A stretch of 34,248 nt of DNA from Fidelibacterota bacterium. Lineage in GTDB: Bacteria; Fidelibacterota; Marinisomatia; Marinisomatales; UBA1611. Within the stretch, counting starts at the first letter, position 1; each line of letters starts with the position of its first letter. A program made the position numbers and the translations under genes. Positions 6,598-29,767 of this stretch are shown piece by piece. Where the stretch lies: contig JAOHKG010000010.1 in NCBI GenBank assembly GCA_028101095.1, forward strand, positions 1-34,248. Reading direction: 5' to 3'. The notes below the pieces were generated by a model. That model was not told the DNA's origin, did not search any database, and was given only the letters and a program-made list of their open reading frames with translations.

Positions 6598-7095
6598 ATG
6601 GTTAGATATTTATCATTTCTACTATTCATTGGGTTGGCTTGGGGGCAAAGTCTAAAATTCATTAATATTGATGGACGGTCTATTACTTTTAAAAAGGCTC
6701 CTTCACAATTAAGATTTGGACCATACACCAGCGACACTTTTTATTTAAACGGGACTAATTATTCTTTAAAGAATATAGACTTTAAAACAAAAGTAGTTAA
6801 GGTAAAAAAGATATACCGTAATGGTATAAGCCAATTTATTAATTATAACAAATACGAAGAAATTCCCTTTGATTCTATTCGTTCTTTCAGGTACTTAAAA
6901 CGAAGTTTTAGTGTCATTCCGATGGTAATTGGTGGAGCTATAGGATACTTTTATTTAACAAATCCAAATGCCAATACTCTATCTTTTTATTTTAGTATGT
7001 CTGCTTTCGGACTTGGTGTGAATTTATCATTTAGGCCAAAGTTTAGTGAGGAATTAATTGTGGGAGATGGTGGATGGACTATCAACACTGAATAA
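6598..7095 (+). CDS. Exported protein of unknown function
   Basis: I do not recognise the family. Starting at the ATG at 6598 (a TTG six bases earlier is less likely) gives 165 residues. There is a clear signal peptide, MVRYLSFLLFIGLAWGQ. Next comes a domain rich in short beta strands (NIDGRSITFKK; GPYTSDTFYLNGTNY; FKTKVVKVKK), then two short hydrophobic segments near residues 105-140 (VIPMVIGGAIGYFYL and a following FYFSMSAFGLGVNL). It may be a periplasmic or envelope-anchored protein. It is bounded on both sides by copies of the same intergenic repeat, so it may have arrived as a single-gene unit. Confidence 0.6.
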   Translation: MVRYLSFLLFIGLAWGQSLKFINIDGRSITFKKAPSQLRFGPYTSDTFYLNGTNYSLKNIDFKTKVVKVKKIYRNGISQFINYNKYEEIPFDSIRSFRYLKRSFSVIPMVIGGAIGYFYLTNPNANTLSFYFSMSAFGLGVNLSFRPKFSEELIVGDGGWTINTE

Positions 7096-7126
7096 TCCAC
7101 ATCTTTTTTCATATAAACTCTAGCCG

Positions 7127-7212
7127 TCATAAACCAAAAGAAAGATAGGACAAGTTTATGGACACACATTATTGGTTTTTTTGTTTATGGGATGATAGGT
7201 TGATTTAAAACT
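7127..7212 (+). repeat. Cassette-type intergenic repeat, copy 2
   Basis: Two parts are present. CATAAACCAAAAGAAAG matches the second repeat type seen at 13239 and 23670. CACACATTATTGG, a T-run and GTTTATGGGATGATAGGTTG then match the first type. The copy separates the exported protein gene from the thioredoxin gene. Confidence 0.6.
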
Positions 7213-7228
7213 AATCTTTAGATAAAAA

Positions 7229-7714
7229 ATGAATAGAACAAAACCGGAATTACTAAATTTATTAAAAACACACTGGCTGTGGATATGGTTCTGGCGTTTA
7301 ACTTTGGTTTTTTCTCTCTCCTACGCTTGGTATTGTTTTTATGTCCCTTCTAACGATATTGTTTGGGCTGAAAATTATATCTCTGCTCAAAACAAAGCGT
7401 TCCAGTCTGATAAGCCTATTATACTCTTTTTTACTGGAAAGTGGTGTGTCCCCTGTAAAATTATGAAGCGTCAAGTTTGGGCAGATGAGCAAGTTAGGGA
7501 TGTAGTAAATAAAGAGTTTATCCCATTGATAATTGATGTAGATGACCCTGATAACATTGATTTATTGGTTCGCTATAATGTTGCTGGTACACCAATTACG
7601 ATTATTACCGATTCAAATGGAAATGCTTTGCAATGGCGAGTAGGGGGAATTGGCAAATCCGAATTTCTTGAACTACTGAGGGAATCAAGTTCAATTGCCA
7701 TTAATACTATATAG
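7229..7714 (+). CDS. Membrane-anchored thioredoxin-like protein
   Basis: The protein has 161 residues with one N-terminal membrane helix (about 18-40) followed by a thioredoxin fold. The active site is W72-C73-V-P-C76, followed by KIMKRQVW, which is typical of the thioredoxin_7/DsbD-gamma-like group. The cis-proline motif GTPIT comes later in the fold (VAGTPITIITDSNG). The catalytic domain is probably on the outer face of the cytoplasmic membrane, giving or taking electrons from envelope cysteines. No partner (DsbD, CcdA) is adjacent. It lies between two copies of the intergenic repeat, like its upstream neighbour, which suggests that it is cargo of the island. Confidence 0.85.
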   Translation: MNRTKPELLNLLKTHWLWIWFWRLTLVFSLSYAWYCFYVPSNDIVWAENYISAQNKAFQSDKPIILFFTGKWCVPCKIMKRQVWADEQVRDVVNKEFIPLIIDVDDPDNIDLLVRYNVAGTPITIITDSNGNALQWRVGGIGKSEFLELLRESSSIAINTI

Positions 7715-7720
7715 TCTTTT

Positions 7721-7762
7721 TAAACCCCCACATTCGTCGGGTTTTTTGTTTATAGCCTCACA
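7721..7762 (+). terminator. Terminator and repeat copy after thioredoxin gene
   Basis: AAACCCCCACATTCGTCGGGTTTTTTG forms a short CCC(G)A/TCGGG hairpin followed by six T and GTTTATAG. It is the same family as the element at 11236, here serving as terminator for the thioredoxin gene. Confidence 0.65.
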
Positions 7763-7778
7763 CACATTGTAGGTTGGT

Positions 7779-7988
7779 TTAATTATACTGAAATGCTGCT
7801 TCTAATGGCACATCAAAAACTTTAGCTATACGAAATGCAAGCTCAAGTGATGGTGAGTATTTTTGTGCTTCAAGTGCAATAATCGTTTGTCGTGTGACAC
7901 TTGCTTTCTCAGCTAACTCTGCCTGAGTCATCTCATTTGCCTCAAATCGCAACCGACGAATTTGATTCTTTATTTTATGTTTTTTCAT
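7779..7988 (-). CDS. XRE-family helix-turn-helix regulator
   Basis: The 69-residue protein is almost entirely one lambda-repressor-like [13 protein letters not shown] (residues 20-29) is helix 2, [15 protein letters not shown] is the recognition helix and turn, and [21 protein letters not shown] is the closing helices. Regulators of this exact shape are commonly coded next to a DUF2178-like membrane protein. That is what is found here: the ATG follows the stop of the upstream gene with no gap (TAGATG). The pair probably controls its own expression. The ligand or signal is unknown. Confidence 0.9.
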
Positions 7989-8450
7989 CTAAGTGTTTTT
8001 TCTATAATAATATAATTGATTAACCGATTTCACTGTTGAAGAAAAAAGAGCTATGATGAATAATAACATGGCTATCATTGGAGGAGACATCAGTTCAGTC
8101 AAACGTACTCGATTAATTGGATAGAAAATAATTAGTCCTATCAAGAGGTAAATAGATACCTGAGATATTATGTTGCTCATTCTATAACTTTTCAGTTCAA
8201 AAGTATAATCCCGTTCATCTTTGTCTTCCTTTTTAATAAAAATATTAATAGATCCAAAAACAGATACTGAGTAAATGATAGAAATAATAATTGAAGTCGC
8301 AATTATGTCAATTAAAGCTTCACCATATAGCTGGCCATTAATTATTAACGGAAATATTTTAGGTATAAAATAAAATGACACTACCACATTTAATATTAAT
8401 TCTGCCCATATGTTTAATTCTCTATTTGAATAATTATTGAGATAGTTCAT
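7989..8450 (-). CDS. Four-helix membrane protein paired with XRE regulator (DUF2178-like)
   Basis: The protein has 153 residues with four predicted membrane helices (about 15-36, 45-70, 95-118 and 125-142). Between helices 2 and 3 lies the cytoplasmic motif KKEDKDERDYTFELKSYR. The DERD-x(3)-E-x-K-x-x-R pattern is typical of DUF2178-like proteins found with small XRE regulators. Such pairs are widespread in bacteria but have no settled function; sensing of envelope or temperature stress is only a guess. It is the first gene of the two-gene unit read leftward. Confidence 0.75.
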   Translation of the reverse strand: MNYLNNYSNRELNIWAELILNVVVSFYFIPKIFPLIINGQLYGEALIDIIATSIIISIIYSVSVFGSINIFIKKEDKDERDYTFELKSYRMSNIISQVSIYLLIGLIIFYPINRVRLTELMSPPMIAMLLFIIALFSSTVKSVNQLYYYRKNT

Positions 8451-8633
8451 TTAACTCATCCTTTTTTTATTAATTGATTATTATAATGTAAGAAATATAT
8501 TACATAATGACAAATATATTTTACACTGTAAATATTATCTCAAAATACTTACTTAGAAGGTTTTTTGTTAATAAAATGGTTCAATTTCCACTACAGATAC
8601 ACTGGTAAAGTTTCATTTATAGAGGATTCTGAG

Positions 8634-8690
8634 CCTGCTTTGGGAGCAGGAGATCGGGAGTTCGAATCCTTCCCCCGCTACAACACGAGA
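8634..8690 (+). pseudogene. tRNA-Pro(TGG) 3' fragment
   Basis: The anticodon arm CCTGC-TTTGGGA-GCAGG (anticodon TGG at 8641-8643) is intact. A variable region, a T-arm-like GGGAG-TTCGAAT-CC and an acceptor-like CCCGCTACA follow. Nothing upstream forms a D arm or a 5' acceptor strand. The T stem carries extra or changed bases. A 3' fragment of this kind is the usual scar of site-specific integration into a tRNA gene, here into tRNA-Pro. It sits inside the tRNA-Asp island. Confidence 0.75.
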
Positions 8691-8736
8691 CAACCAGAGT
8701 CTCGACATAAAGCCCTCTTAATTGAGGGCTTTTTTG
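8684..8736 (+). terminator. Two hairpins after tRNA-Pro fragment
   Basis: The first is CGAGAC/GTCTCG. The second is AGCCCTC-TTAATT-GAGGGCT followed by TTTTTTGTTTG, a strong rho-independent terminator. It was probably the original terminator of the tRNA-Pro gene, carried along with the fragment. The tail TTTTTTGTTTG resembles the cassette-type repeat. The segment 8451-8840 holds no other gene. Confidence 0.8.
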
Positions 8737-8840
8737 TTTGTAAAATAATGTTAGTCCAACCCTACTTTTTATTTTCCTCAATAAAAAAAATAGTTTTTAA
8801 CCTTTTGTCATTTTAGGTGTCTATAATTATTGGGAAGTAT

Positions 8841-9968
8841 ATGACGGTAATACCAATAGGAACATTTAACATAGTGAAATTTTTATCAATACTTGCATTA
8901 TTAACTACAATTTATGGACAAACTGAGTCTACATTTTATGATTTAAATGATGATGGTGAAACTGACATAGTTGATTTAGAATTATTAGTATTATGGGTTT
9001 TAGAAGATTCATTTGATGAGGATGGCGATGTAAATCAGAACGGTGTTTTAAATATTTTTGATGTTATTTTATTAGCTGATATAATTTTATATCCTATACC
9101 AGAATCAGGGTTATTTATCAATCAACAATATCAAGAAAGTGAGCTTTCAATTATCTATGATTTAGAATATTCTCGAAGACCAAATCCATACGGTGTACAA
9201 TATTCTTCTAGCAGCACTCAGCAAGAAGAACAGTTACAAGATACTATTTTTTTACACTTAGACCTTGTCTTACCTCCAAACCCAGAAAATCTGCTACTTC
9301 CTATGGTTATGATGATTCATGGTGGAGGTTTTCATACTGGAAATAAAGAACAAAAATTGCATTATGCTCAAGATTATGCAACATTAGGCTATATAGGATG
9401 TACCATTAATTATAGATTAACTCGACAAAATGTAATCCAGGAATCAGATGAGAACTATATAGCTGCAGTTAATGATGCTGTTGAAGATGCTATGAATGCT
9501 ATTAGATACTTAAAAACTCAAAGCTCTATCTATAACATTGATAATGATAGAATAGTAACCATTGGAAACTCTGCGGGAGCATTTATTTCATTACACAATG
9601 CAATTGATAATGACGAATCCTTACCAGACCAAGAAAGTATTAATGACTATTCTGGAATTTCATCAACAGTGTCAGTATCTATATCAACAGGTGCTGTATT
9701 TCCAAATGAGGCATTAATTCATTTGAATTTTGATGAAAATGATGCAAGTTGCTTAATTATGCATGCTGAAGATTACGACTCAGTTACAGACACATATTGG
9801 GAAGAGGATGTTATCCCTTTTTATGAAGCAATTATAAATTCAGGTAATCATGCGGGCCTAGTGCCTCAACCTTCAGGTTCTCATGGCGTGGGAGTTGGCC
9901 CATTTGAAGAATATAGCGAAGTTATTATTCCATTTATATGGAATCAATTAAATCTTAATAATTGGTAA
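8841..9968 (+). CDS. Secreted alpha/beta-hydrolase (carboxylesterase-like) with N-terminal dockerin-like repeat
   Basis: Starting at the ATG at 8841 gives 375 residues; a GTG at 8817 would add eight. A signal peptide ends near TTIYGQ. Residues about 31-83 hold two calcium-loop motifs (DLNDDGETDIVDLELL; GDVNQNGVLNIFDVILL), a type I dockerin-like pair. The hydrolase follows, with oxyanion-hole motif HGGG (160-163), nucleophile elbow G-N-S244-A-G and a late SH348GVG as the likely catalytic histidine; the acid is probably in HAEDYDS. The layout fits the BD-FAE/acetyl-esterase-like family acting on ester-linked decorations of polysaccharides. The dockerin may only be a calcium-stabilised spacer, since no cohesin is seen. 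It lies directly after the tRNA-Pro scar. Confidence 0.8.
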   Translation: MTVIPIGTFNIVKFLSILALLTTIYGQTESTFYDLNDDGETDIVDLELLVLWVLEDSFDEDGDVNQNGVLNIFDVILLADIILYPIPESGLFINQQYQESELSIIYDLEYSRRPNPYGVQYSSSSTQQEEQLQDTIFLHLDLVLPPNPENLLLPMVMMIHGGGFHTGNKEQKLHYAQDYATLGYIGCTINYRLTRQNVIQESDENYIAAVNDAVEDAMNAIRYLKTQSSIYNIDNDRIVTIGNSAGAFISLHNAIDNDESLPDQESINDYSGISSTVSVSISTGAVFPNEALIHLNFDENDASCLIMHAEDYDSVTDTYWEEDVIPFYEAIINSGNHAGLVPQPSGSHGVGVGPFEEYSEVIIPFIWNQLNLNNW

Positions 9969-11293: not shown

Positions 11294-12181
11294 CTATAAC
11301 ACAAAGTCATCAATCTCCGTAGCAAGTAAAGGAGCATAATGACGCTCCGTTGTGGTCACGGATGAATGACCCAATAGCTTACTTACTTCATAGATTGGTC
11401 TTCCTTGCCTAATTAAATTATAACCAAAGGTTCTCCTTAGGTCGTGGAACCTGATATCAGGTATACCAAGCCTTATGGCTTCTTTCTTGAACTTGTGTGA
11501 TACGAAGTCCTTGGTATAATCCCAGAGCTCATCCAGTCCATCCAATATCTCCTGAGCTTGGTTATTTAGCTTGATTAATCTCTTACCACTTTTACCATAT
11601 GCGACTATATGATTAGAAAATATTTTTTCCCTTGATATAGAGCGTATTTCACCGCTTCTAGCACCAGTGTAGTAAGCGAATCTGACAAAGCAATTGAAGC
11701 GATTATCCCTTATTTCATCAAGGAGAGTCTTGAGTTCAGAATCACTTAGTACTCTACTTCTGGATTCCCACTTGCTCCCCCCTTCTATCTTAATTGGCTG
11801 ATTGATTAAACCATGTTTAAATCCCCAATTATTACAGGCATTTATTGAACGGATTGTCATTGCTTTCGTAGTTTTATTAGCAGGAAGACTATTCACTAAG
11901 TACTTATTCAAGAGACCTTTATTACGCTCTTTAGTACTTTTTGCCCAATCGTGCCCTTGGTATTGTAAATATCTTTCAACAAGGTTATTGAATGAGATAG
12001 TTTGCGGTTTCTTTTCACTTGCTCCATTGATTAACTCTGAGAGGATTTGTTTTTCTATCTGAGGAGTTACCTTCTTTGCAGTTTCATAACAACGAGTTCC
12101 TAAACTGCGAGTTATTCGACTGTTTTGAAAGGTTACTGCCAAATAATAAACACCTGTTGATTTGCGGTAAACTGAAGCCAT
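11294..12181 (-). CDS. int: Tyrosine recombinase (integrase) of the tRNA-Asp island
   Basis: The 295-residue protein is a phage-type integrase. A short N-terminal arm-binding-like region (MASVYRKSTGVYYLAV) is followed by a core-binding SAM-like domain (about 60-130) and the catalytic domain. All catalytic residues are visible: R175 (YTGARSGEI), K197 or K200 (YGKSGKR), H246 and R249 (HDLRR), H272 (LLGHSS) and Y282 (RHYAPL). A good Shine-Dalgarno (AAAGGAG) precedes the ATG. It sits about 90 bases inside the right repeat and reads inward. This is the normal place for the integrase of an island inserted into tRNA-Asp. No excisionase was recognised. Confidence 0.95.
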   Translation of the reverse strand: MASVYRKSTGVYYLAVTFQNSRITRSLGTRCYETAKKVTPQIEKQILSELINGASEKKPQTISFNNLVERYLQYQGHDWAKSTKERNKGLLNKYLVNSLPANKTTKAMTIRSINACNNWGFKHGLINQPIKIEGGSKWESRSRVLSDSELKTLLDEIRDNRFNCFVRFAYYTGARSGEIRSISREKIFSNHIVAYGKSGKRLIKLNNQAQEILDGLDELWDYTKDFVSHKFKKEAIRLGIPDIRFHDLRRTFGYNLIRQGRPIYEVSKLLGHSSVTTTERHYAPLLATEIDDFVL

Positions 12182-13432: not shown

Positions 13433-16400
13433 ATGAAAAAGTTTTTTGTCATTCTGTTCTTTTTAGTTGGAATGAAAACATTTGCAGACATTGGGTCCGT
13501 ACAGGGCAGTATCAAAGATGGTTCAGGGGAGCCACTTTGGGGAGCCAATGTATATCTACTTAACACCTCATTTGGTGCTTCAACCGATTCTGCGGGTACC
13601 TATCAGATCCAGAATATTCCTTTAGGAAAGTATACTCTTATTTGTGACTATATAGGCTATCGATCTCAAAATCGAACCATTTATATTTCTGCATTTGACA
13701 CAGACAGTGCTACAAATATGGACCAATCCTACCTTGATAAAATGGGTCTTGATGAGGATGAGGATTTAGATCTTGATATTATAAAGGGTAATGATTTAGT
13801 AGAAATAAACTTTAAGCTTGAAGAAGATGTTTTTAATAGTCAAGAAGTTGTTGTTACCGGGGTTGCATCCGAACGTTCGGTGGAGGTTTCGGAGGTTGCA
13901 GTAACAAGGTTAAAACCAAGAAAATTTAATGAATCTACATCCTATACTGATTTTGGTTCATTACTAATGGCAAAGGTCAGTGGGCTTGATATTCGAAAAG
14001 CTTCTGGAACAGTTGGCGGAGGCTTCAGGTTTGATATGCGAGCAGGCGGGGGGTTGAATGGAAAAGAGCAACCAGTTGTTTACATAGATGGCATGAGAGT
14101 AGTTAATGATGAAATTGGTGGTATGGGGTCTAACGCCCTGACTACTGGGGGACAAGGAATATCAACATTACTTGATTTCAATCCCGATGATATTGAGAAT
14201 ATTGAGATTTTAAAAGGACCTGCTGCAGCTACAAGCTATGGAACTAACGGATCAAACGGTGTGGTCTTTATTGAGACTAAGAAAGGTAATATTGGTCAAG
14301 ATGGCCCTGTATTTAACTACAAATTTACCTCTGGAAGAAACAGTCCTAACTTTAAAGTGAATGATGGGTTCCAAAATAGAGATCTATTTCATAGTCTATT
14401 ATCAGACGGTTCCATTAATGATAACTACTTTAGTATGAGTGGCGGTAACTATGTTTTTAGGCACTTCGTCTCTATTTCTAGAAGGCACGAGGAAGGAATG
14501 GTAATTTGGAAAGATAAAAACTACTTTGACAGAAATACTCTGAGAGCAAACTTTGATATAATACCGCAGGATAATCTAACTTTAAGTCTAAATACATCCT
14601 ATAGTACTCTTGATGCAGCCATGCCACCAAGTGATAATCATATTTACAGTGTCTCGTACAATACTTTAGTTGCTTTTAACCCTTGGCAAGAGTCTGATAG
14701 TACGTCTATTTCCCAATTAGGAATAAATTTCAAAACTAAAAGGTTGATTAGCTCTGCATCAATTAAATATTATCCATTTAATAACATCTATCGTTTTGGC
14801 TTGAATACGTTTCAGCTGTATGCAAAGTTAGGCTTTGATGATGCTGAGCGACATAACAGTAATTTATTCCCCTCTGGATATAACTATGCACTTTTCAATG
14901 ATGGTACAAAAGCCATAGAAAAGTCAAATGAAAGGAATACAATCTTTGATTTAGGCGCTGCACATAATTACAGAATGGGACGATTGGTCGCCACTTCAAG
15001 CTTGTCAGCTCAATTTTTTGATAGGAAGTGGGAAGGATTGGAGATTGCTCGAGATTCCTTTGGACAAAATGCAGTAACAGATATTGGCTCGGGTTCTAAC
15101 ATAACCGTTGCTGGGGAGTGGGAAGGAAATGCTAGGGATGCAGGAGCTATTTTAACACAGGAAATGTCATTCCTAGACCAATATTTTCTAACCTTAAGCT
15201 ATAGAAAGGACTATAGTTCTGCTTTGGGTTCTTCATCTAGATCAATTGGATACCCTGGAATGCGGTTCTCTACAAGATTGGATAAGTTCAATTTTGTTCC
15301 ATCTCAATTTCAAATGCTAAAATTTAGAGCAGCTTATGGTGAGAGCGGTGTCTTGCCAGCTCATACGGACGGTCAGAACCTTCTTTGGTCGGGTAGTGTG
15401 GGAGGAAATGGATCAGGTGCAACAATATCTGGAGTAGGTAATCCAAACATTGAACCTGAAAGAATTAAGGAACTAGAACTAGGGTTAGATATGACTTGGA
15501 AAAGCCTGTTATCTCTAGAATTATCCTCTTACAAGCAATGGGCAGAAAACTCTGTAATCTACCGCCCTCTCTCTCCATCTCTGGGATACGGAAATTTGGC
15601 AAGGCCAGATAACATTGGCAGCATGGAAATGGAAGGATTTGAAGCGCTATTTAGAGCTTCTCCAATAAAAAAGAAAGATTTAAACGTAGATATGAGTCTT
15701 TCATATAGTTGGAATGATAATACCGTTAAAAAAATGGGTGACCCGGTATTTGATAACTTTGGACTAGTTACTATCAGAGAAGGTTATCCAAAATACTCTC
15801 TCTGGGGTCAAAAAGTTAATGGCGCTATGATTGATACTTTCGATCTTGCACTCTTAGGCCTGGAGGGCTCCGTTCCATTTTTTGATCCAGTTAATGGGTA
15901 TAGACTAGAGGAAGAAGGTTACATAGGACGCCTAGTACCTGAGCATATAGGAAACTTTTCTGTAAATGTTGATTATAAAATATTTGATTTTTTTATGCTA
16001 TTTGAGCGGAAAACAGGGTTTTCTTCTGCCGTTGGAGGTATGTGGTGGGCCACCGGACCAAACAACAATGGTCACATTGGTTGGTTAAGTTCAATGCAAA
16101 AACTTGGGCTAGATGAACTGTTCGCTGCGATGAATTTGATTCCTGCTGAAATGACAAGGCAGGTTACACCTGTTGTAGGAGATGAAGAAATCGTGGGCAC
16201 TATTGATTATGATGTTTTTGGAGCGACTAACGGCGCGGTAATTCTGCCTATTGCTGTTTCAGGCAGGGAGGATGAATGGGCACAAACAGCTGATGAGTTT
16301 GCAAAAGCACATCCTGCATTTTCGTCAAACTATACTGAAGATGGTAGCTACACAAGATTGAGGGAGATAAGTATGGGCGTAAGTTTAGACGAGTTTTTAC

Positions 16401-16627
16401 CTCTACTCAAATTAGATAATGCGATATCTGGGTTAAGAGTATTTGTTTCAGCTAATAATGTAAAACTGTGGAGAGCGAAAGGCGCGGTTGGTGTAGATCC
16501 TGAGCTAAACATGTCAGGTGCTATAACAGACCCGATAGGCACTACAGGCAATGGTTATAGAAGCGTAGAGGTTCATACGATGCCCTATCCCACTACTTAT
16601 AATTTTGGAATTAACGTAAGGTTTTAG
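13433..16627 (+). CDS. SusC/RagA-like TonB-dependent outer-membrane receptor
   Basis: The protein has 1064 residues, normal for SusC-like receptors, which import oligosaccharides or peptides through the outer membrane with TonB energy. The signal peptide is residues 1-19. A carboxypeptidase-regulatory-like beta domain (about 21-130) includes GSIKDGSGEPLWGANVYLL and LGKYTLICDYIGYRSQ, followed by an acidic insertion (DEDEDLDLDI). The plug (about 140-285) has QPVVYIDGMRV and ILKGPAAATSYGTNGSNGVV. The 22-strand barrel then runs to a terminal NFGINVRF. GGAG precedes the ATG by eight bases. The SusD-like gene follows after three bases, so the pair is one transcription unit. The substrate is not determined. 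The late region has a lower-conservation insert (about 870-960). Confidence 0.95.
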   Translation: MKKFFVILFFLVGMKTFADIGSVQGSIKDGSGEPLWGANVYLLNTSFGASTDSAGTYQIQNIPLGKYTLICDYIGYRSQNRTIYISAFDTDSATNMDQSYLDKMGLDEDEDLDLDIIKGNDLVEINFKLEEDVFNSQEVVVTGVASERSVEVSEVAVTRLKPRKFNESTSYTDFGSLLMAKVSGLDIRKASGTVGGGFRFDMRAGGGLNGKEQPVVYIDGMRVVNDEIGGMGSNALTTGGQGISTLLDFNPDDIENIEILKGPAAATSYGTNGSNGVVFIETKKGNIGQDGPVFNYKFTSGRNSPNFKVNDGFQNRDLFHSLLSDGSINDNYFSMSGGNYVFRHFVSISRRHEEGMVIWKDKNYFDRNTLRANFDIIPQDNLTLSLNTSYSTLDAAMPPSDNHIYSVSYNTLVAFNPWQESDSTSISQLGINFKTKRLISSASIKYYPFNNIYRFGLNTFQLYAKLGFDDAERHNSNLFPSGYNYALFNDGTKAIEKSNERNTIFDLGAAHNYRMGRLVATSSLSAQFFDRKWEGLEIARDSFGQNAVTDIGSGSNITVAGEWEGNARDAGAILTQEMSFLDQYFLTLSYRKDYSSALGSSSRSIGYPGMRFSTRLDKFNFVPSQFQMLKFRAAYGESGVLPAHTDGQNLLWSGSVGGNGSGATISGVGNPNIEPERIKELELGLDMTWKSLLSLELSSYKQWAENSVIYRPLSPSLGYGNLARPDNIGSMEMEGFEALFRASPIKKKDLNVDMSLSYSWNDNTVKKMGDPVFDNFGLVTIREGYPKYSLWGQKVNGAMIDTFDLALLGLEGSVPFFDPVNGYRLEEEGYIGRLVPEHIGNFSVNVDYKIFDFFMLFERKTGFSSAVGGMWWATGPNNNGHIGWLSSMQKLGLDELFAAMNLIPAEMTRQVTPVVGDEEIVGTIDYDVFGATNGAVILPIAVSGREDEWAQTADEFAKAHPAFSSNYTEDGSYTRLREISMGVSLDEFLPLLKLDNAISGLRVFVSANNVKLWRAKGAVGVDPELNMSGAITDPIGTTGNGYRSVEVHTMPYPTTYNFGINVRF

Positions 16628-16630
16628 ATC

Positions 16631-17971
16631 ATGAAAAAAATATATATTTCGTTATACCTATTACTTATTTTAACTGGATGTGAATCGTTCGTTGAAAGTA
16701 CAACCTCTTCAATATCTTATGTGACTGATGAAGAAATAAATGATCCTGCAAACATACCTTTTCTTATAAATGGTGTATTGAATGATTATTCTAGTGCTCA
16801 TACATATGTTTCTCTATGGGCTGATTTATTATCAGATGCATTGGTTAATGATGGCAAAGTGCAGGGTTCAACTGATGTAAGAGGAGAATATCTCGATAAT
16901 GGAAGCTACGACCCTACAGTAGGGACATATGCTCCTCCTTACCAGGCAATTGCTAAGGTCTGGAGATCCGCTAACTCATTAAAATTAAGATTAGACTTGA
17001 TGGATGGTGATGAATCATCGGAAAAGCTAGGTTATTATACTGCATATTTATACCAAGCATTACCATGTTATCTTCTAGGTACGTATTATGGTAACGGACC
17101 AAACTATCCTGATGATGGCGGAGCAACACTAAATGAAAGTGCCTTTCAGCGCTCAAGTAATCTTTATTCAATGGCGATATCATATTTCGATTCTGCGATG
17201 ATCTATGCAGATGAATATCAAAAGAAAATCATCCACTCTCTATTAGGCAGACAATACCTTTATGAGGGTAATTATAGTGCTGCAGCTCAACATGCTTTGT
17301 TGGGTCTTCAGCAGAGTGATGAATCTTTTAATGCACTTTCAGGGGAGGAAGACCCATGGCCAAATTGGTATTGGTATGAAGCAGGAAGTAACAGAACACG
17401 CTATACACTAGCCTCCAGATTTAAACACTTTCTAGGAGAGGATTTCGAAGATACAAATGGTAATGGTGTATGGGACTCAACAGAAACATTTACAGATTGT
17501 GCAATCACTGGAGCAGATGTAGGCCAAGGTAATGGTACGTACGATGGACCGCTTGAACTAGAAGAGATTGTTCGTTTATCATTATCAGTTGCTACGATGA
17601 CGCCTGGCCAAAGCTACTCAAGGTACTTTCAGACGAAATATCCGTTTGCAGACTCACCGGTATCCATCATTGACTGGAAGGAAAACCATCTTATTCTTGC
17701 AGAACTTGCACTAAGAGGTGAATCTGTTAATGTGACAGCTATTGATGCAGTCAACTCGGTAAGATCATCGCATGGGCTTCAATCACTTGCTAGTGTTGAT
17801 TATGAGGTCCTTTTACATGAAAGAGATAAGGAATTATTCTGTCAAGGACAAAGACTCATAGACCAAAATAGATTCTCGGACATTCTAAACTGGCATTTGC
17901 CTGATGGTGATACATGGCGCTATCTGCCGGTACCTTTTGAGGAAGCACTAAATAATCCAAATTATCCATAA
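16631..17971 (+). CDS. SusD/RagB-like nutrient-binding lipoprotein
   Basis: This is the cell-surface lid partner of the SusC-like receptor. Of 446 residues, the first 17 are a lipoprotein signal with lipobox L-T-G-C17. The mature part is helix-rich with TPR-like segments (SLLGRQYLYEGNYSAAAQHALLGL). It ends with the SusD-type C-terminus, including DWKENHLILAELALR, then IDAVNSVRSSHGLQSL and LLHERDKELFCQGQRLIDQNR. It is shorter than typical SusD (500-600 residues). An aspartate-rich loop (DTNGNGVWDS, about residue 276) could bind calcium. The substrate is unknown. The gene is three bases from the receptor gene and 15 bases before the STAS gene, so all probably share one transcript. Confidence 0.92.
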   Translation: MKKIYISLYLLLILTGCESFVESTTSSISYVTDEEINDPANIPFLINGVLNDYSSAHTYVSLWADLLSDALVNDGKVQGSTDVRGEYLDNGSYDPTVGTYAPPYQAIAKVWRSANSLKLRLDLMDGDESSEKLGYYTAYLYQALPCYLLGTYYGNGPNYPDDGGATLNESAFQRSSNLYSMAISYFDSAMIYADEYQKKIIHSLLGRQYLYEGNYSAAAQHALLGLQQSDESFNALSGEEDPWPNWYWYEAGSNRTRYTLASRFKHFLGEDFEDTNGNGVWDSTETFTDCAITGADVGQGNGTYDGPLELEEIVRLSLSVATMTPGQSYSRYFQTKYPFADSPVSIIDWKENHLILAELALRGESVNVTAIDAVNSVRSSHGLQSLASVDYEVLLHERDKELFCQGQRLIDQNRFSDILNWHLPDGDTWRYLPVPFEEALNNPNYP

Positions 17972-17986
17972 TAAAGAAATTAGTTC

Positions 17987-18346
17987 ATGTCAAACCCCAC
18001 ATTAACAACAGCTGTAGAAAAGATACAGCCGACTGCGATCATCAAGTTGGATGGGGCGTTTAATGACTTTCACGCCAAAGAGGTAATCGGGATAATTGAT
18101 GATTTATTAGCGCAAGATTTTGTTCATTTCATTATCAATTTTAAATCCTGCACTGAGGTAAATAATTATGGTGTATCAGTATTAATTAGTCTCATTGGAT
18201 CAATAAATCAAAAATCTGGAAAATTATTTTTTACAAATGTTGATTCACATCTTGAAAAAAAGTTGAAAATGATGGGCCTTGCTGCATACGCAGAATTCTA
18301 TTCTGAGGACAAGGTGGCACTCGAATCATTAATTGAAAAGCACTAA
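17987..18346 (+). CDS. STAS-domain anti-sigma factor antagonist-like protein
   Basis: The 119-residue single-domain protein matches the SpoIIAA/RsbV fold: a TAIIKLDGAFNDFHA strand and helix start, VHFIINFKSCTEV, then the loop N59-N60-Y61-G62-V63 where phosphorylatable members have D-S-S/T-G-L. The serine/threonine acceptor is therefore missing. Family members bind and sequester anti-sigma kinases when unphosphorylated. One without the acceptor would be a constitutive antagonist, or would respond by another route. The gene sits between the SusD-like gene (15 bases) and the SpoIIE-type phosphatase gene (38 bases), which strongly implies a functional link. No HATPase-type kinase is in the window. 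Confidence 0.85.
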   Translation: MSNPTLTTAVEKIQPTAIIKLDGAFNDFHAKEVIGIIDDLLAQDFVHFIINFKSCTEVNNYGVSVLISLIGSINQKSGKLFFTNVDSHLEKKLKMMGLAAYAEFYSEDKVALESLIEKH

Positions 18347-18384
18347 GTAATAACTTTTAAATCTAACGTATTGGAAAATAAGTA

Positions 18385-21369
18385 ATGTTAAATAAGACAA
18401 AACTAATTCTTTTTCATTTCACAGTATTGTATAATTTTATTTTTGGTAATCCTTCTGAAGGAGTATGGAAGCAATTCTTGTATACGAATGGAATTTCAAG
18501 CAACTATACATTTGATGTTCACAAAGATAAACAAGGTAGGGTTTGGGTCGGAACTCAAAATGGTATCACTCTAATTGATGGAAGCATTACAAGAAAATAT
18601 GGTGTCTCTCATGGCTTACCCTCTGCTGACATTATCAAAATAACTGATATAAATGGACGTTTATTTGCAGCTACATCTGGTCAAGGTGTATATGTTTTGG
18701 AAAATGATACTTTTGAAAAAGTAAATTTTGTAAAAGGATCAAATGTTACCACAATGGAAAATATTGGGGACAAAATCTTTATATCTACGAACCTGGAAAA
18801 TATCATGTATGATGGAAATAGCACCTCCTTTATGGGTAAAGGATTTCCAAATTCTAAAATTATTGATACTTTTTCAAATGAAAAAAATGACTGGTTTGTT
18901 TCTGATAGGAACCTTATCAAACTAGAGGAAAATAAGTATGTATCAGAAAAAATAACATTTCCTAGCTCGAATGCAAAAATACAAGCATTAATTATTGATG
19001 ACGATATTGAATATTTTGGTACCAATCAAGGCCTATGGAGCAGACAAAATAATAGGAATGCCAAATTAATTAAAAATATCAATGTATTGAGTCTCGATAG
19101 AACATCAAATGGCTTAATAATTGTTGGAGCAAAAAAAGGTTTTTATTATCTAAGCAATGGAGCTCTGAAAGAGATAACTCCCGTTGGGCAAGATTACCTT
19201 TCACTCAGCAAGACTGCTGTAAGGGATATTGAAGTCACTTCAGAAAATGAAATATGGTATGCTACGTTTGGAATGGGTCTCTTTCTTCATGATCCAGGAA
19301 CTTTTACTAATATAAATACTAAAAATGGTCTAGACGTCGGTGGGATGACTTTTGATCTAGAAAGAGACGGAGATAAAGTATATATAGCTACAAAAAACGG
19401 CCTCTTCATCTATAAAAAAAATAGAATAGAAAAACATTTCACCAAAAAAGATGGTTTGCCATCAAATATGATACTAGATCTTGACCTTGATTCTAAAGGT
19501 AATTTATGGATTGCAACTGCTAATGGTCTTTCAAAGTTGTCTGGATCTTTCTTTAAAAACTATTCGCGTACAGATGGCTTACCATCCAAATTAGTTACAT
19601 CAGTGCATGTAGATAAAAGAGATGACTCCAGAATTTGGATTGGCTCGGAAAGGTCGGGATTGACAAGATTTGATGAAAAAGGGTTTTATACATTTGCAGT
19701 ACAGGACGGTCTACCAAGCAATTCAATAAGGGATATTACTCAATTAAACAATGGCACGCTTATAATTGCCTGTTACAAAGCTGGAGTCGCAAAATTTGAT
19801 GGAAAAAGATTTACACTGTACGATAATGGGCTTGATGATAAACGTGTAATACTATTGGAAAACGGGTTTGATGGAGAAGTTTGGGCCGGAACGGAATCCG
19901 CCGGAATAGGTGTATTAGAAGGGAATCAATTCAGGATGATTCGCGATTCAGACGGCCTTGCCCATAATGAGATGTTTTCACTTTATAATGATGGAAAAAA
20001 AATGTGGGCAGGAACATTTGGTGGTGGAGTAAGTTGCTTTCACGAGAATACATGGTTTACCCTCAGAGAATCTGATGGTTTAAATAGTAATACCGTAGGT
20101 TCAATTGTATCAATTGATGAAAATACTACAATGATTGGTGGTACTTCAGGGATTTCAATCTTTAAAATGAATAATCAAACGTTCAGTTTAGAAATAATAA
20201 ATATACTAACGCCTAGTGAAGAACTTTCATTTGAAAAACAGATGGAACCCATAAGTGGTATTTTAAAAGACAGATTTACTTTGACTCCTAATCCCATGGT
20301 ATATAATCCCTCTGATGCAGAAATAAAATATAGGTATAGAACAAAAAAATTCAGTGATCCAAAATTTAGTGATTGGTCAAAATTATCACTTTCACCACAA
20401 ATTTCATATGTGCCACAGGATGTTGGTTCTTTCCAGTTACAAATACAAGCTGTGGATAATAGAGTAGCTTTCTCTGAAATAATTACGGTACCATTTAACA
20501 TCGGTCGTGTATGGTATCTAGATCCAAAAACTGCTATTCCATTTTGGGGAAGTATCTTGCTCTTAATTGGATTTTCTACTGTTACTTACATTAATTACCG
20601 TAAAAAAAGTATAGAGGCTGAAAAACTTAGAGAGGCAGAAATAGAGCGTCAGCAGGCAGAAATGGAAGAAGCAAGAGAGTTTCAACAAGCGATGTTGCCA
20701 AGTGAAATGCCTATTACTGATGATTATGAGATGGTGGGGTTTCAAAAGACTGCAACTGAAGTTGGAGGAGATTTTTTTGATTTTATGCAAAAAGAAGATG
20801 GAAGATGGGTTGCAATATGTGGTGATGCAACTGGGCATGGTCTGACCTCAGGAAATGTTGTTTCCATAACAAAAACTGCAATGAGTTCACTTGTAGAAGA
20901 AGATCCGGTACCAACTCTTGACTCATTAAACAAGACACTACTTAATATGAATATTGGTTTAAACAGAATGTGCTTAAATATTGCAAGTATTGGTAAAGAC
21001 TCTATTCGCTTTTCTTCTGCTGGTATGCCTCCGGCCTATTACTATTCTGCTGAAAAACGCGAACTAGAAGAAATATTAGTTGGAGCACTACCTCTGGGTT
21101 CTTTCAAGAGAGCTATCCACACAGAGAAGGAGATTGCTTTTAAAAACAGTGGAGATATCCTAATAATGATGTCTGATGGCCTTCCTGAGGCAGAAAACTC
21201 CAAAAATGAGATGGTAGGTTATGAGCGAACATTAGATTTGATTAAAACTTTATCTGATAAATCCGCTGAAGAAATAAAAGATGGACTTGTAGAGATGTGC
21301 GATAATTGGCTTGGTGATACTGCTAAACTTCAGGACGACATGACATTTGTAATAATCAAAAAAAGATAA
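18385..21369 (+). CDS. Periplasmic propeller sensor with cytoplasmic SpoIIE/PP2C phosphatase
   Basis: The 994-residue protein has a signal peptide or anchor (about 1-22) and then Reg_prop beta-propeller repeats to about residue 600. The repeats recur as W-V/I/A-G-T: GRVWVGTQNGITLI near residue 52, then GNLWIATANGLSKL, RIWIGSERSGL, EVWAGTESAGIGVL and KMWAGTFGGG. A Y_Y_Y-type Ig-like domain (about 640-708), one membrane helix (about 719-736) and a glutamate-rich coiled coil (IEAEKLREAEIERQQAEMEE) follow. The PP2C/SpoIIE domain has metal-binding GGDFFDF (793-799), GDATGHGLTSG (812-822), SDGLPEA (about 931) and QDDMTF (about 983). The N-terminal half is that of Bacteroidetes hybrid two-component glycan sensors, but the output is a phosphatase and not a histidine kinase. 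It probably senses a ligand in the periplasm and dephosphorylates a STAS partner. Confidence 0.93.
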   Translation: MLNKTKLILFHFTVLYNFIFGNPSEGVWKQFLYTNGISSNYTFDVHKDKQGRVWVGTQNGITLIDGSITRKYGVSHGLPSADIIKITDINGRLFAATSGQGVYVLENDTFEKVNFVKGSNVTTMENIGDKIFISTNLENIMYDGNSTSFMGKGFPNSKIIDTFSNEKNDWFVSDRNLIKLEENKYVSEKITFPSSNAKIQALIIDDDIEYFGTNQGLWSRQNNRNAKLIKNINVLSLDRTSNGLIIVGAKKGFYYLSNGALKEITPVGQDYLSLSKTAVRDIEVTSENEIWYATFGMGLFLHDPGTFTNINTKNGLDVGGMTFDLERDGDKVYIATKNGLFIYKKNRIEKHFTKKDGLPSNMILDLDLDSKGNLWIATANGLSKLSGSFFKNYSRTDGLPSKLVTSVHVDKRDDSRIWIGSERSGLTRFDEKGFYTFAVQDGLPSNSIRDITQLNNGTLIIACYKAGVAKFDGKRFTLYDNGLDDKRVILLENGFDGEVWAGTESAGIGVLEGNQFRMIRDSDGLAHNEMFSLYNDGKKMWAGTFGGGVSCFHENTWFTLRESDGLNSNTVGSIVSIDENTTMIGGTSGISIFKMNNQTFSLEIINILTPSEELSFEKQMEPISGILKDRFTLTPNPMVYNPSDAEIKYRYRTKKFSDPKFSDWSKLSLSPQISYVPQDVGSFQLQIQAVDNRVAFSEIITVPFNIGRVWYLDPKTAIPFWGSILLLIGFSTVTYINYRKKSIEAEKLREAEIERQQAEMEEAREFQQAMLPSEMPITDDYEMVGFQKTATEVGGDFFDFMQKEDGRWVAICGDATGHGLTSGNVVSITKTAMSSLVEEDPVPTLDSLNKTLLNMNIGLNRMCLNIASIGKDSIRFSSAGMPPAYYYSAEKRELEEILVGALPLGSFKRAIHTEKEIAFKNSGDILIMMSDGLPEAENSKNEMVGYERTLDLIKTLSDKSAEEIKDGLVEMCDNWLGDTAKLQDDMTFVIIKKR

Positions 21370-21471: not shown

Positions 21472-21667
21472 TTTAAGATAAGCTATGAAGTTGAATATTC
21501 ATTGTTAGATTATTTCATAAATGAATAACAGTTGGCTTATATGACCCTACTCTTCCAGAGTTCACCAACCGAGTCTTTTGGCCACGGTGCTTTAGGTTAT
21601 AAACATTAAATGTACATCATGCATAAACTTAAAATCACAAAAATGATTGCTACGATTAGGCATTCCC

Positions 21668-23521
21668 ATGTCCCGCTCTAACTCGCCCCATATTCCGCCT
21701 GCCTCAGCAGGTTCTAATGCCAAAAGCCCACGGCGATATTTGGGGGTGTTTCGGTATAGTGGTCGGGCACTGGGGTTAGTATGGACTACGCATCGGGGAC
21801 TGACGCTGGCTATGATGGCACTTGTATTGGCTGCGGGGTTGATGCCTGCTGTAGTCGCATGGCTGGGAAAAATGATTGTTGACACAGTAGTGCTGGCGGC
21901 AGAAACACAAGCGCCCGCCAACAGGCATTTGGCGATAATGTATGTTGTGGCTGAAGCAGGTGCAATCGGCTTACTGGCTGGATTTCAACGCGGTATTGCG
22001 GTGTGCGAGTCGCTATTGCGCGCCCTGCTTGGCCAACGAGTCAATGTAATGATTCTGGAAAAGGCTGGGACATTATCGTTGGAGCAATTCGAGGATTCGG
22101 AGATATATGATCGCATGACACAGGCACGTCGCGAGGCATCTAGCCGCCCGCTGGCGTTGGTACGCAAAACTTTTGGGCTGATTCAAAACTCTATTTCTAT
22201 AATTGCCTACGGAGGATTGCTGATACAATTTTCGCCTATTGCTGTGGTGGTGCTGTTTGTAGCGGCCCTGCCCGTCTTTTTTGCCGAAGCTCGTTTCTCG
22301 GGTGAGGCCTTTCGCCTGTTTACATGGCGTACCCCTGAGCGACGCGAGCAGCTGTATCTAGAGACCGTACTGGCCCGCGAAGATTACGCCAAAGAGGTAA
22401 AACTTTTTGGCCTGTCTTCAATGCTGCTCGGACGCTATAAGGCAATATTTAAAAGGTTATTCAGCGACGACCGTAACCTAACGTTACGCAAAGGTTTCTG
22501 GGGCTACCTATTGGGCTTATTGGGCACGTTGGCCTTTTATGGTGCTTATGGATGGATAGTCATAGAGACAGTTGCAGGGGTATTAACCTTGGGTGGCATG
22601 ACGATGTACATCCTAGTATTCAAACAAGGTCAGGCCGCCATAACCGCTAGCCTATCAGCAATTGGCGGCATGTACGAAGACAACCTATACCTTTCGAACC
22701 TTTATGAATTTCTTGAGGTTCCCATTACAAAGGATACAGGCCGTGCTAGCTCAGGACCGAACCCTAAAGACGGCATTCGATTTGAGAACGTTGGATTCAC
22801 TTATACGGGCGCCGCTAGCCCTACCCTGCAAGGAATAAACCTGCACCTTCAACCAGGGCAAAAACTGGCGTTGGTCGGACACAATGGTTCGGGCAAGACA
22901 ACACTGATCAAATTAATGTCTCGGCTATACGAGCCTACCGAAGGCCGAATACTGTTCGAGGGCCGCGATCTCCAGGATTGGGATATCGCTACGTTGCAGG
23001 ACAAAATTGGTGTGATATTCCAAGATTTTGTCCAGTACCAAATGAAAGTAGGTGAAAACATCGGTACTGGTGATGTCCAGAATTTCGATGACCAAGACCG
23101 TTGGCAAGACGCTGCGACTAAAGGGCTGGCTGCGGACTTTATCGAACGTATGCCCAACAGCTACCTAACTCAATTGGGTAGATGGTTCGCTGGTGGTCAA
23201 GAATTGTCTGGCGGAGAATGGCAAAAAATAGCGCTATCGCGCGCATTTATGCGCCGGTCAGCCAATGTCATAGTGCTCGATGAGCCCACCAGTGCAATGG
23301 ACGCCGAAGCTGAAGCCAAAATATTTGACCACTTTCGCCAAATCACCGAAGATCAAATGGCGATTCTAATCTCACATAGATTCTCGACTGTTCGTATGGC
23401 TGATCAAATTGTAGTCTTAGAACACGGGCAAATACAAGAGCGCGGTACGCACGAAAAATTATTAGAGGCCGACGGCGAGTATGCACGATTGTTCAAACTA
23501 CAAGCCGCAGGGTATCAATAG
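21668..23521 (+). CDS. ABC exporter (fused membrane and ATPase domains), foreign composition
   Basis: Starting at the ATG at 21668 gives 617 residues (a TTG at 21647 is less likely). Membrane helices occur at about 40-65 and 75-100 (VVGALA-type hydrophobic runs), 170-200 and 260-310. The ATPase domain follows, with Walker A GHNGSGKTT (about 405), Q-loop GVIFQDFVQY, signature LSGGEWQK (about 513), Walker B VIVLDEPTSAMD (about 533-544) and H-loop ISHRFSTVRMADQ. It exports an unknown substrate, probably as a homodimer. Base composition differs sharply from its neighbours: the 60 bases from 22321 have 37 G+C, against 17 in the 60 bases from 20341. This points to recent transfer from a GC-richer donor. 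It stands alone, preceded by the tRNA-Leu-like sequence. Confidence 0.92.
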   Translation: MSRSNSPHIPPASAGSNAKSPRRYLGVFRYSGRALGLVWTTHRGLTLAMMALVLAAGLMPAVVAWLGKMIVDTVVLAAETQAPANRHLAIMYVVAEAGAIGLLAGFQRGIAVCESLLRALLGQRVNVMILEKAGTLSLEQFEDSEIYDRMTQARREASSRPLALVRKTFGLIQNSISIIAYGGLLIQFSPIAVVVLFVAALPVFFAEARFSGEAFRLFTWRTPERREQLYLETVLAREDYAKEVKLFGLSSMLLGRYKAIFKRLFSDDRNLTLRKGFWGYLLGLLGTLAFYGAYGWIVIETVAGVLTLGGMTMYILVFKQGQAAITASLSAIGGMYEDNLYLSNLYEFLEVPITKDTGRASSGPNPKDGIRFENVGFTYTGAASPTLQGINLHLQPGQKLALVGHNGSGKTTLIKLMSRLYEPTEGRILFEGRDLQDWDIATLQDKIGVIFQDFVQYQMKVGENIGTGDVQNFDDQDRWQDAATKGLAADFIERMPNSYLTQLGRWFAGGQELSGGEWQKIALSRAFMRRSANVIVLDEPTSAMDAEAEAKIFDHFRQITEDQMAILISHRFSTVRMADQIVVLEHGQIQERGTHEKLLEADGEYARLFKLQAAGYQ

Positions 23522-28758: not shown

Positions 28759-29767
28759 TTAGTCAGGCCAATTAGAAATTATATTTTTAGCAAGTTTACC
28801 AGCTTCGGTAAGATCTGATTCTTGCCATTGGCCTGTTATACTTGCACCAGGTATTACGATTGACCATTCTTCATCTTTATCATTCACAGCCCAGTTTACA
28901 TGACTAATTTTATTTGTATTGCACCAATTCATCCATTTGTTTGCCTCTGAATCAATCATGCTATATCCTACAGAGCCCCATTCTGTCACAAAAATAGGGA
29001 TACCATTATTAATTGCAGCTGTAGCTCTCTCCCTAAGCCAATCTTGATGATAAATAGTGTAAAAATGTAAGCTGTAAGCAATATTTGGGAATGTTGTAAT
29101 TGGATCTTCAGCCACAAGATCTACTCGTTGTGACCATTCAGGAGACCCCACAATTATTAAATTATCTGGATCTATCGCTCTTATTGCTTTTATAACTTGA
29201 ATGGCATATGGCTTTACTATTTCAGACCATGAAACATTGAGAGGTTCATTATAAATTTCATAAATGACATTTTCAGATTCCCCATAAGTTTGTGCCATTT
29301 CTTGAAAAAATAGTTTTGCTTCTTCGAGATGATCTTCTGCATGGTGTGAATGCCAATCAATAATGACATAAATACCTTCTTCAATAGCAGCTTCAACTAC
29401 AGTCTTTAATCGTAATTTATTTGCTTGTTTATTGTAGAGATAGCCGCCAGGATCTTCAACCCCCATAGCTGCTCTGACAATTTTAGAGTTCCAGTCTGTC
29501 TTTAGCCATTTAACCGTAGAAGAATTATAAAATCTTTCTCCTCCCCAATTATCATTACTCCAAAAAAAACTATTGCCGGCAAAGCTTACTGGATCATTGT
29601 TTTTATTTACTATTTTGTTACCAGATACTTTTAAAAGTCCATTTTCAGTAACTATTGAACTATCTATTCCTTCAGGTATTATGTTTGAATTATGATTATT
29701 ATTATTGTCATCGCAAGAGATGTTGAAATACTGAAATAAAAAGAATGATAAAAATTGAATTAATCAT
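28759..29767 (-). pseudogene. GH5-like glycoside hydrolase lipoprotein with 5' frameshift
   Basis: The main frame is open from 29763 to the stop at 28759 (334 codons). It includes WSNDNWGGERFYN, VKWLKTDWNSKIVRAAMGVE, VIIDWHSHHAED, the acid/base YEIYNEPLNVSW and the nucleophile FVTEWGSVGY, a complete GH5 (cellulase-like) core. The first in-frame ATG, at 29466, falls inside the fold and cannot be the start. Upstream, ATG at 29767 opens MINSIFIILFISVF, a signal peptide in the neighbouring frame. In the main frame the sequence continues as ISCDDNNNN, a perfect lipobox. One extra base between the two (two five-base A-tracts are at 29738 and 29750) would explain this. It is either a broken gene, a phase-variable one or a sequence error. 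Confidence 0.8.

Follow-up and report, generated by a model that had tools for sequence, protein, structure and literature searches.

A SusCD importer array with a STAS protein and a propeller-sensor SpoIIE phosphatase in Neomarinimicrobiota, and its link to TonB-dependent receptors

A four-gene array: importer pair, Asn-STAS and sensor phosphatase

The window, the whole 34,248-nucleotide stretch of DNA analysed here, is one contig of a 1.22-Mb Neomarinimicrobiota MAG (G000) that is 60% complete. Four genes on its + strand, separated by gaps of 3, 15 and 38 bp, form a tight, operon-like array:

13433-16627, + strand: SusC-family TonB-dependent outer-membrane receptor, 1064 aa (domain and profile matches, orthologues)
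16631-17971, + strand: SusD-family surface lipoprotein, 446 aa, lipobox LTGC (profile matches)
17987-18346, + strand: STAS-only protein in which Asn (VNNYG) takes the place of SpoIIAA Ser58 (Pfam, alignment, purifying selection)
18385-21369, + strand: sensor phosphatase with signal peptide, periplasmic sensor, transmembrane segment (TM), coiled coil and SpoIIE/PP2C domain (Pfam, motifs, AlphaFold model)

A promoter and terminator scan gave signal no better than that in shuffled sequences. Just upstream of SusC lies a tyrosine recombinase/integrase gene (window 11294-12181), not found at the orthologous loci examined; on the other side, an ABC exporter gene (window 21647-23521) of ~50% GC in a ~33% GC genome, with best plasmid-borne relatives only ~40% identical, was probably acquired horizontally.

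The SusC protein carries CarbopepD_reg_2 and Plug domains (Pfam) and matches TIGR04057 just above the cut-off and TIGR04056 just below it (6.7e-102); its orthologues in G018, G022, G010 and G045 are 94, 86, 73 and 57% identical. No STN signalling domain was found on it in the Pfam scan, which returned CarbopepD_reg and Plug only; it thus differs from receptors of TBDR-FecR/ECF surface signalling. SusD alone had no Pfam match at 1e-3, and a structure prediction from three close sequences was useless (pLDDT 36.6) and was replaced by a profile of 14 relatives. This family profile matches solved SusD proteins (3kez at 1.9e-15), and SusD_RagB was matched in 14/14 members at E ≤ 0.1 (best 4.4e-7); the ortholog in G045 is 48% identical. 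By profile membership, a SusC receptor and SusD lipoprotein importer pair is present. Carbohydrate-active enzymes, a trait of polysaccharide utilisation loci, were not found among the window neighbours scanned with Pfam; an ORF at window 28759-29466 is cellulase-like by eye only.

The phosphatase matches SpoIIE (4e-29) and Reg_prop (1e-17) in Pfam; Y_Y_Y reaches only 0.011 in the window protein, and is matched in 6/7 orthologues (best 7e-7). With the signal peptide and TM read off the sequence, the chain divides into a periplasmic region of two propellers plus Y_Y_Y (residues ~25-708), the TM (~714-735), a coiled coil (~741-769) and the SpoIIE/PP2C domain (805-992). Its AlphaFold model (pLDDT 78.7) matches the periplasmic domains of the HTCS sensors BT4663, BT4673 and BT3049 at ~1e-31 to 1e-34, and all PP2C metal-ligand motifs are present (EVGGDFFD, GDATGHG, SDGLPE, DDMT), including the metal-ligand Asp residues of partner-switching phosphatases. 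The protein therefore has the periplasmic Reg_prop double propeller and Y_Y_Y of an HTCS, with a SpoIIE domain instead of histidine kinase, receiver and DNA-binding output in one chain.

In an alignment of the STAS protein (PF01740, 3.4e-9) with structurally solved SpoIIAA, NNYG stands in place of the DSSG motif, Asn replacing Ser58, and Asn occupies this position in 7/7 orthologues; by this alignment the protein lacks the phosphorylatable Ser/Thr of partner switching and cannot be phosphorylated at the canonical site. Identity among orthologues is 83-92% for STAS vs 55-82% for the propeller, and substitutions in the Asn-STAS are overwhelmingly synonymous (pN 0.05-0.13 vs pS 0.6-0.85), which rules out pseudogene decay and marks a maintained state.

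A first-pass annotation had described four closely spaced genes at these coordinates and an HTCS-like propeller/Y_Y_Y sensor with SpoIIE output, and both descriptions hold. Its view of the adjacent STAS as the natural substrate type of the phosphatase does not: besides the uniform Ser-to-Asn change, a near-complete relative (G010) keeps the pair, and no RsbW-type kinase was found in it.

Recurrent linkage to TonB-dependent receptors

A midpoint-rooted tree built from 26 SpoIIE domains separates the window group, together with G045 and G154, both long branches, from other propeller-SpoIIE proteins (support 96/91). A TonB-dependent receptor (TBDR) lies within 2 kb in 8/9 loci of this clade (family f1, G045 and G154; three families), whereas none was found in the 18 other propeller-SpoIIE loci, or in 11 when the seven with less than 2 kb of flank on at least one side are set aside. 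Seventeen of these 18 are in the tree and one, a fragment, is outside it; G015, also outside, was assigned to the clade by identity and counted as its one member without a receptor. The G015 phosphatase departs from the family after residue 898, where the contig shifts from 29-37% to 42-50% GC, and this contig is probably chimeric. With 4-29 plug domains per 1.2-2.9 Mb genome, adjacency throughout the clade is unlikely by chance, although the loci do not count as independent cases. Four or more distinct receptor arrangements occur: SusCD lies upstream in G000, G018 and G022, a receptor lies downstream in G010, G028 and G003, and G045 and G154 each have an arrangement of their own. A binning artefact is ruled out by AG-390-N21, which we take from its name to be a single-cell genome and in which STAS, phosphatase and receptor are linked within one contig (L035/L085).

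The loci of G045 and G154 are the strongest evidence. In G045, from another family of the order, the genes that come directly after the SusC (57%) and SusD (48%) orthologues on the same strand encode, in this order, a HATPase, a Ser-STAS, a cyclase, another Ser-STAS and a TBDR; the phosphatase orthologue is convergent to this array. In G154, from another family of the class, TBDR, phosphatase, HATPase, Ser-STAS and cyclase are consecutive on one strand (Pfam-checked). A second tie to TonB-dependent transport comes from sister modules in G096, G106 and G123, where the genes right after HATPase-STAS are exbB-exbD-exbD-tonB, whose products energise TonB receptors (Pfam on G123):

L228, 7441-10308: HATPase-STAS and exbB-exbD-exbD-tonB
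L227, 4131-7176: HATPase-STAS and exbB-exbD-exbD-tonB
L226, 1469-4485: HATPase-STAS and exbB-exbD-exbD-tonB

These results support a link of partner-switching genes to SusCD/TonB receptors that is non-random, clade-specific and recurrent in other families. The SusCD-sensor link proposed in the first-pass annotation thus stands for this phosphatase clade; a general association of propeller-SpoIIE proteins with receptors is ruled out, and outside the clade such phosphatases do adjoin unrelated genes. Conservation of the neighbourhood is partial: only three genomes keep the exact four-gene order, and one further copy of it has decayed. Across the broad SusD subfamily (31-38% identity) the neighbouring genes vary and include class III cyclase genes (G007, G024) and a gene for a Reg_prop protein (G201); a tie to STAS/SpoIIE is therefore not a general property of SusCD. 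The class III cyclase genes lie directly or nearly upstream of these distant SusCD pairs (L186 40-5148, L193 1365-3821).

In each of the seven f1 genomes the Asn-STAS gene accompanies the phosphatase gene; it always adjoins the phosphatase and never the kinase. G003 has lost SusCD, of which a 46-residue SusD tail persists between the receptor gene and STAS (L034 6059-6205), and keeps the STAS-phosphatase pair. G010, 92% complete and without contamination, carries SusCD elsewhere without STAS, co-occurring with the phosphatase but unlinked; the pair is therefore separable from this SusCD. In some genomes it is apparently also separable from the kinase: neither a HATPase_c_2 kinase nor a Ser-STAS was found in G010, its dnaN locus lacks the module described below, and its other STAS domain is part of a SulP-like transporter of 568 aa. 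The phosphatase there would thus have another target, or the genes fall in the missing 8%.

A kinase, Ser-STAS and cyclase module near dnaN and gyrB

The assembly of G000 contains one SpoIIE, one HATPase_c_2 and two STAS genes, a single one of them a Ser-STAS; since it is only 60% complete, the window phosphatase is provisionally the genome's only SpoIIE phosphatase. Next to dnaN-recF-gyrB-gyrA lies a module that encodes the HATPase kinase, the Ser-STAS and a class III cyclase with GAF and PAS domains (L055, G000:C23:22000-41000, 6750-9537). The kinase keeps the N- and G-box motifs of the ATP site, and the STAS, like its relatives, has Ser at the Ser58 position (VNSIG). In alignment, the cyclase retains metal, Lys/Asp and Asn/Arg residues that we take to be typical of adenylyl cyclases, and is predicted to be one.

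Across the class, predicted partner switches that include a class III cyclase are repeatedly found close to the replication genes. The HATPase-STAS-cyclase module has a propeller-SpoIIE gene in front of it in G015, G018, G023 and G050, whereas this position holds no phosphatase in the window genome, G003 and G013. Genes for phosphatase, kinase, STAS and nucleotide cyclase likewise occur together in G154, in G045 and in the modules near dnaN in relatives; in G000 the cyclase sits with the kinase and Ser-STAS, apart from the phosphatase, and the window locus has no cyclase. The first-pass annotation had called for a search for the cognate HATPase kinase, and one of the RsbW/SpoIIAB type, absent from the window locus, is encoded at G000:C23. 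Its anti-sigma output was not borne out: a class III cyclase accompanies the kinase and STAS genes, and the genes recognised in the module loci include no sigma gene.

Proposed mechanism, alternatives and known systems

The best explanation, which we hold tentatively and at somewhat below an even chance, is an importer-linked PP2C partner switch with cyclase output, in which the Asn-STAS is a pseudo-substrate or docking subunit. SusCD would form an outer-membrane importer co-expressed with the sensor phosphatase, and the HTCS-like periplasmic double propeller may sense the imported compound or its breakdown products. The ligand signal would pass through the TM and coiled-coil linker to control the cytoplasmic PP2C (SpoIIE) phosphatase, whose partner-switch parts in G000 would be the RsbW-type kinase, the Ser-STAS and the predicted adenylyl cyclase near dnaN/gyrB; once dephosphorylated, the Ser-STAS would alter the activity of the cyclase. 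The lost phosphorylation site of the adjacent Asn-STAS makes a role as pseudo-substrate or docking partner of the phosphatase most likely. In favour of this explanation are the receptor linkage of the phosphatase clade, the G045 and G154 loci, the single SpoIIE, HATPase_c_2 and Ser-STAS of the G000 assembly, its phosphatase-free kinase locus, unlike those of G015, G018, G023 and G050, the seemingly intact kinase and cyclase residues, the constant company of Asn-STAS and phosphatase, and the presence of both SusCD and phosphatase in G010; the G010 pair without kinase or Ser-STAS, the G003 pair without SusCD and the low completeness of the G000 assembly count against it. The wider proposition, that TonB uptake in Neomarinimicrobiota is under a phosphatase-driven partner switch with cAMP and not a sigma factor as output, one branch having evolved a dedicated Asn-STAS as pseudo-substrate regulator of the sensor phosphatase that can persist where there is no kinase, is possible, though doubtful as a whole.

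It is unlikely, but still the likeliest of the alternatives, that the Asn-STAS is a constitutively active antagonist, never phosphorylated, that titrates the HATPase kinase and so biases the switch upon SusCD expression, with the phosphatase acting separately on the Ser-STAS. In its favour, a STAS without the acceptor should behave like the unphosphorylated protein, as in SpoIIAA/RsbV mutants, and the kinase is present in G000, G003, G015 and G018. However, the Asn-STAS is 85% conserved in G010, where the kinase went undetected, and it follows the phosphatase rather than the kinase, which would favour the pseudo-substrate or docking role.

The STAS and phosphatase could also be an independent envelope-sensing unit, a chance neighbour of TonB receptors with no functional tie to SusCD. 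The loss of SusCD in G003, its unlinked state in G010 and the different receptors flanking the pair in G010 and G028 are consistent with this; the receptor next to all but one clade member, across three families and several arrangements, the low plug-domain background, and the exbB-exbD-exbD-tonB genes beside sister modules in another family make it quite unlikely. We give a slimmer chance to a phosphatase target outside the STAS proteins, some other Ser/Thr-phosphorylated protein such as the substrate of a Hanks-type kinase, for which the Asn-STAS would be the adaptor: G010 would accord with it, but in G045 and G154 the phosphatase is encoded together with a kinase, Ser-STAS and cyclase. A classical RsbU/RsbV/RsbW anti-sigma switch with the adjacent STAS as substrate is highly improbable, for although STAS and PP2C are adjacent and co-conserved and a HATPase kinase is in the genome, the acceptor Ser is Asn throughout, the pair persists in G010, where no kinase was found, and the kinase module is linked to a cyclase rather than to any identified sigma gene.

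In distant relatives, the genes around the corresponding sensor encode importers, a kinase, an intact STAS and an enzyme of the cAMP type. This context suggests a coupling of nutrient uptake to second-messenger signalling and not to a sigma factor. If true, a propeller sensor with phosphatase output, tied by context to kinase, STAS and class III cyclase, would mean second-messenger control of nutrient uptake in a widespread uncultured marine phylum. The Asn-STAS would offer a test case of a protein that kept its phosphatase partner and lost its phosphorylation site. Known control of SusCD loci is by hybrid histidine kinases or ECF/anti-sigma pairs. The literature searched, which covered few subscription papers, contained no report of SusC, SpoIIE and STAS combined. 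Non-canonical STAS-only proteins whose targets are unknown have been reviewed (PMC8256260), and a term search of that review returned no SusCD-linked case.

Compared with SusCD importers of Bacteroidota, the window pair belongs to the same families by profile and has the same SusC-SusD order, but is a divergent Marinimicrobia subfamily, with no carbohydrate-active enzyme recognised directly beside it. The sensor shares with Bacteroides HTCS of Sus-like loci (BT4663-type), its best solved-structure matches, the double propeller plus Y_Y_Y and the position next to SusCD; its output is a cytoplasmic PP2C/SpoIIE phosphatase, whereas that of HTCS is histidine kinase-receiver-AraC. As in RsbU-RsbV-RsbW and SpoIIE-SpoIIAA-SpoIIAB, a SpoIIE-type PP2C, a STAS and an RsbW-type HATPase with intact motifs occur in one genome; here, however, the phosphatase-adjacent STAS has no acceptor Ser, the kinase is encoded elsewhere, and the genes identified in the module loci include no sigma factor. 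In their logic, SiaABCD and HptB/HsbR-HsbA-HsbD of P. aeruginosa appear to match the evidence best: there, a phosphatase and a kinase determine whether a STAS-like protein is phosphorylated, and this protein in turn controls a diguanylate cyclase (PMC8457831, PMC5085249). The likeness lies in a phosphatase, a kinase and a STAS-like protein with a nucleotide cyclase, not a sigma factor, as the proposed output, all side by side in relatives of the window though not at the window locus; the differences are a class III, predicted adenylyl, cyclase instead of a diguanylate cyclase, a periplasmic propeller as sensor, and the linkage to TonB receptors.
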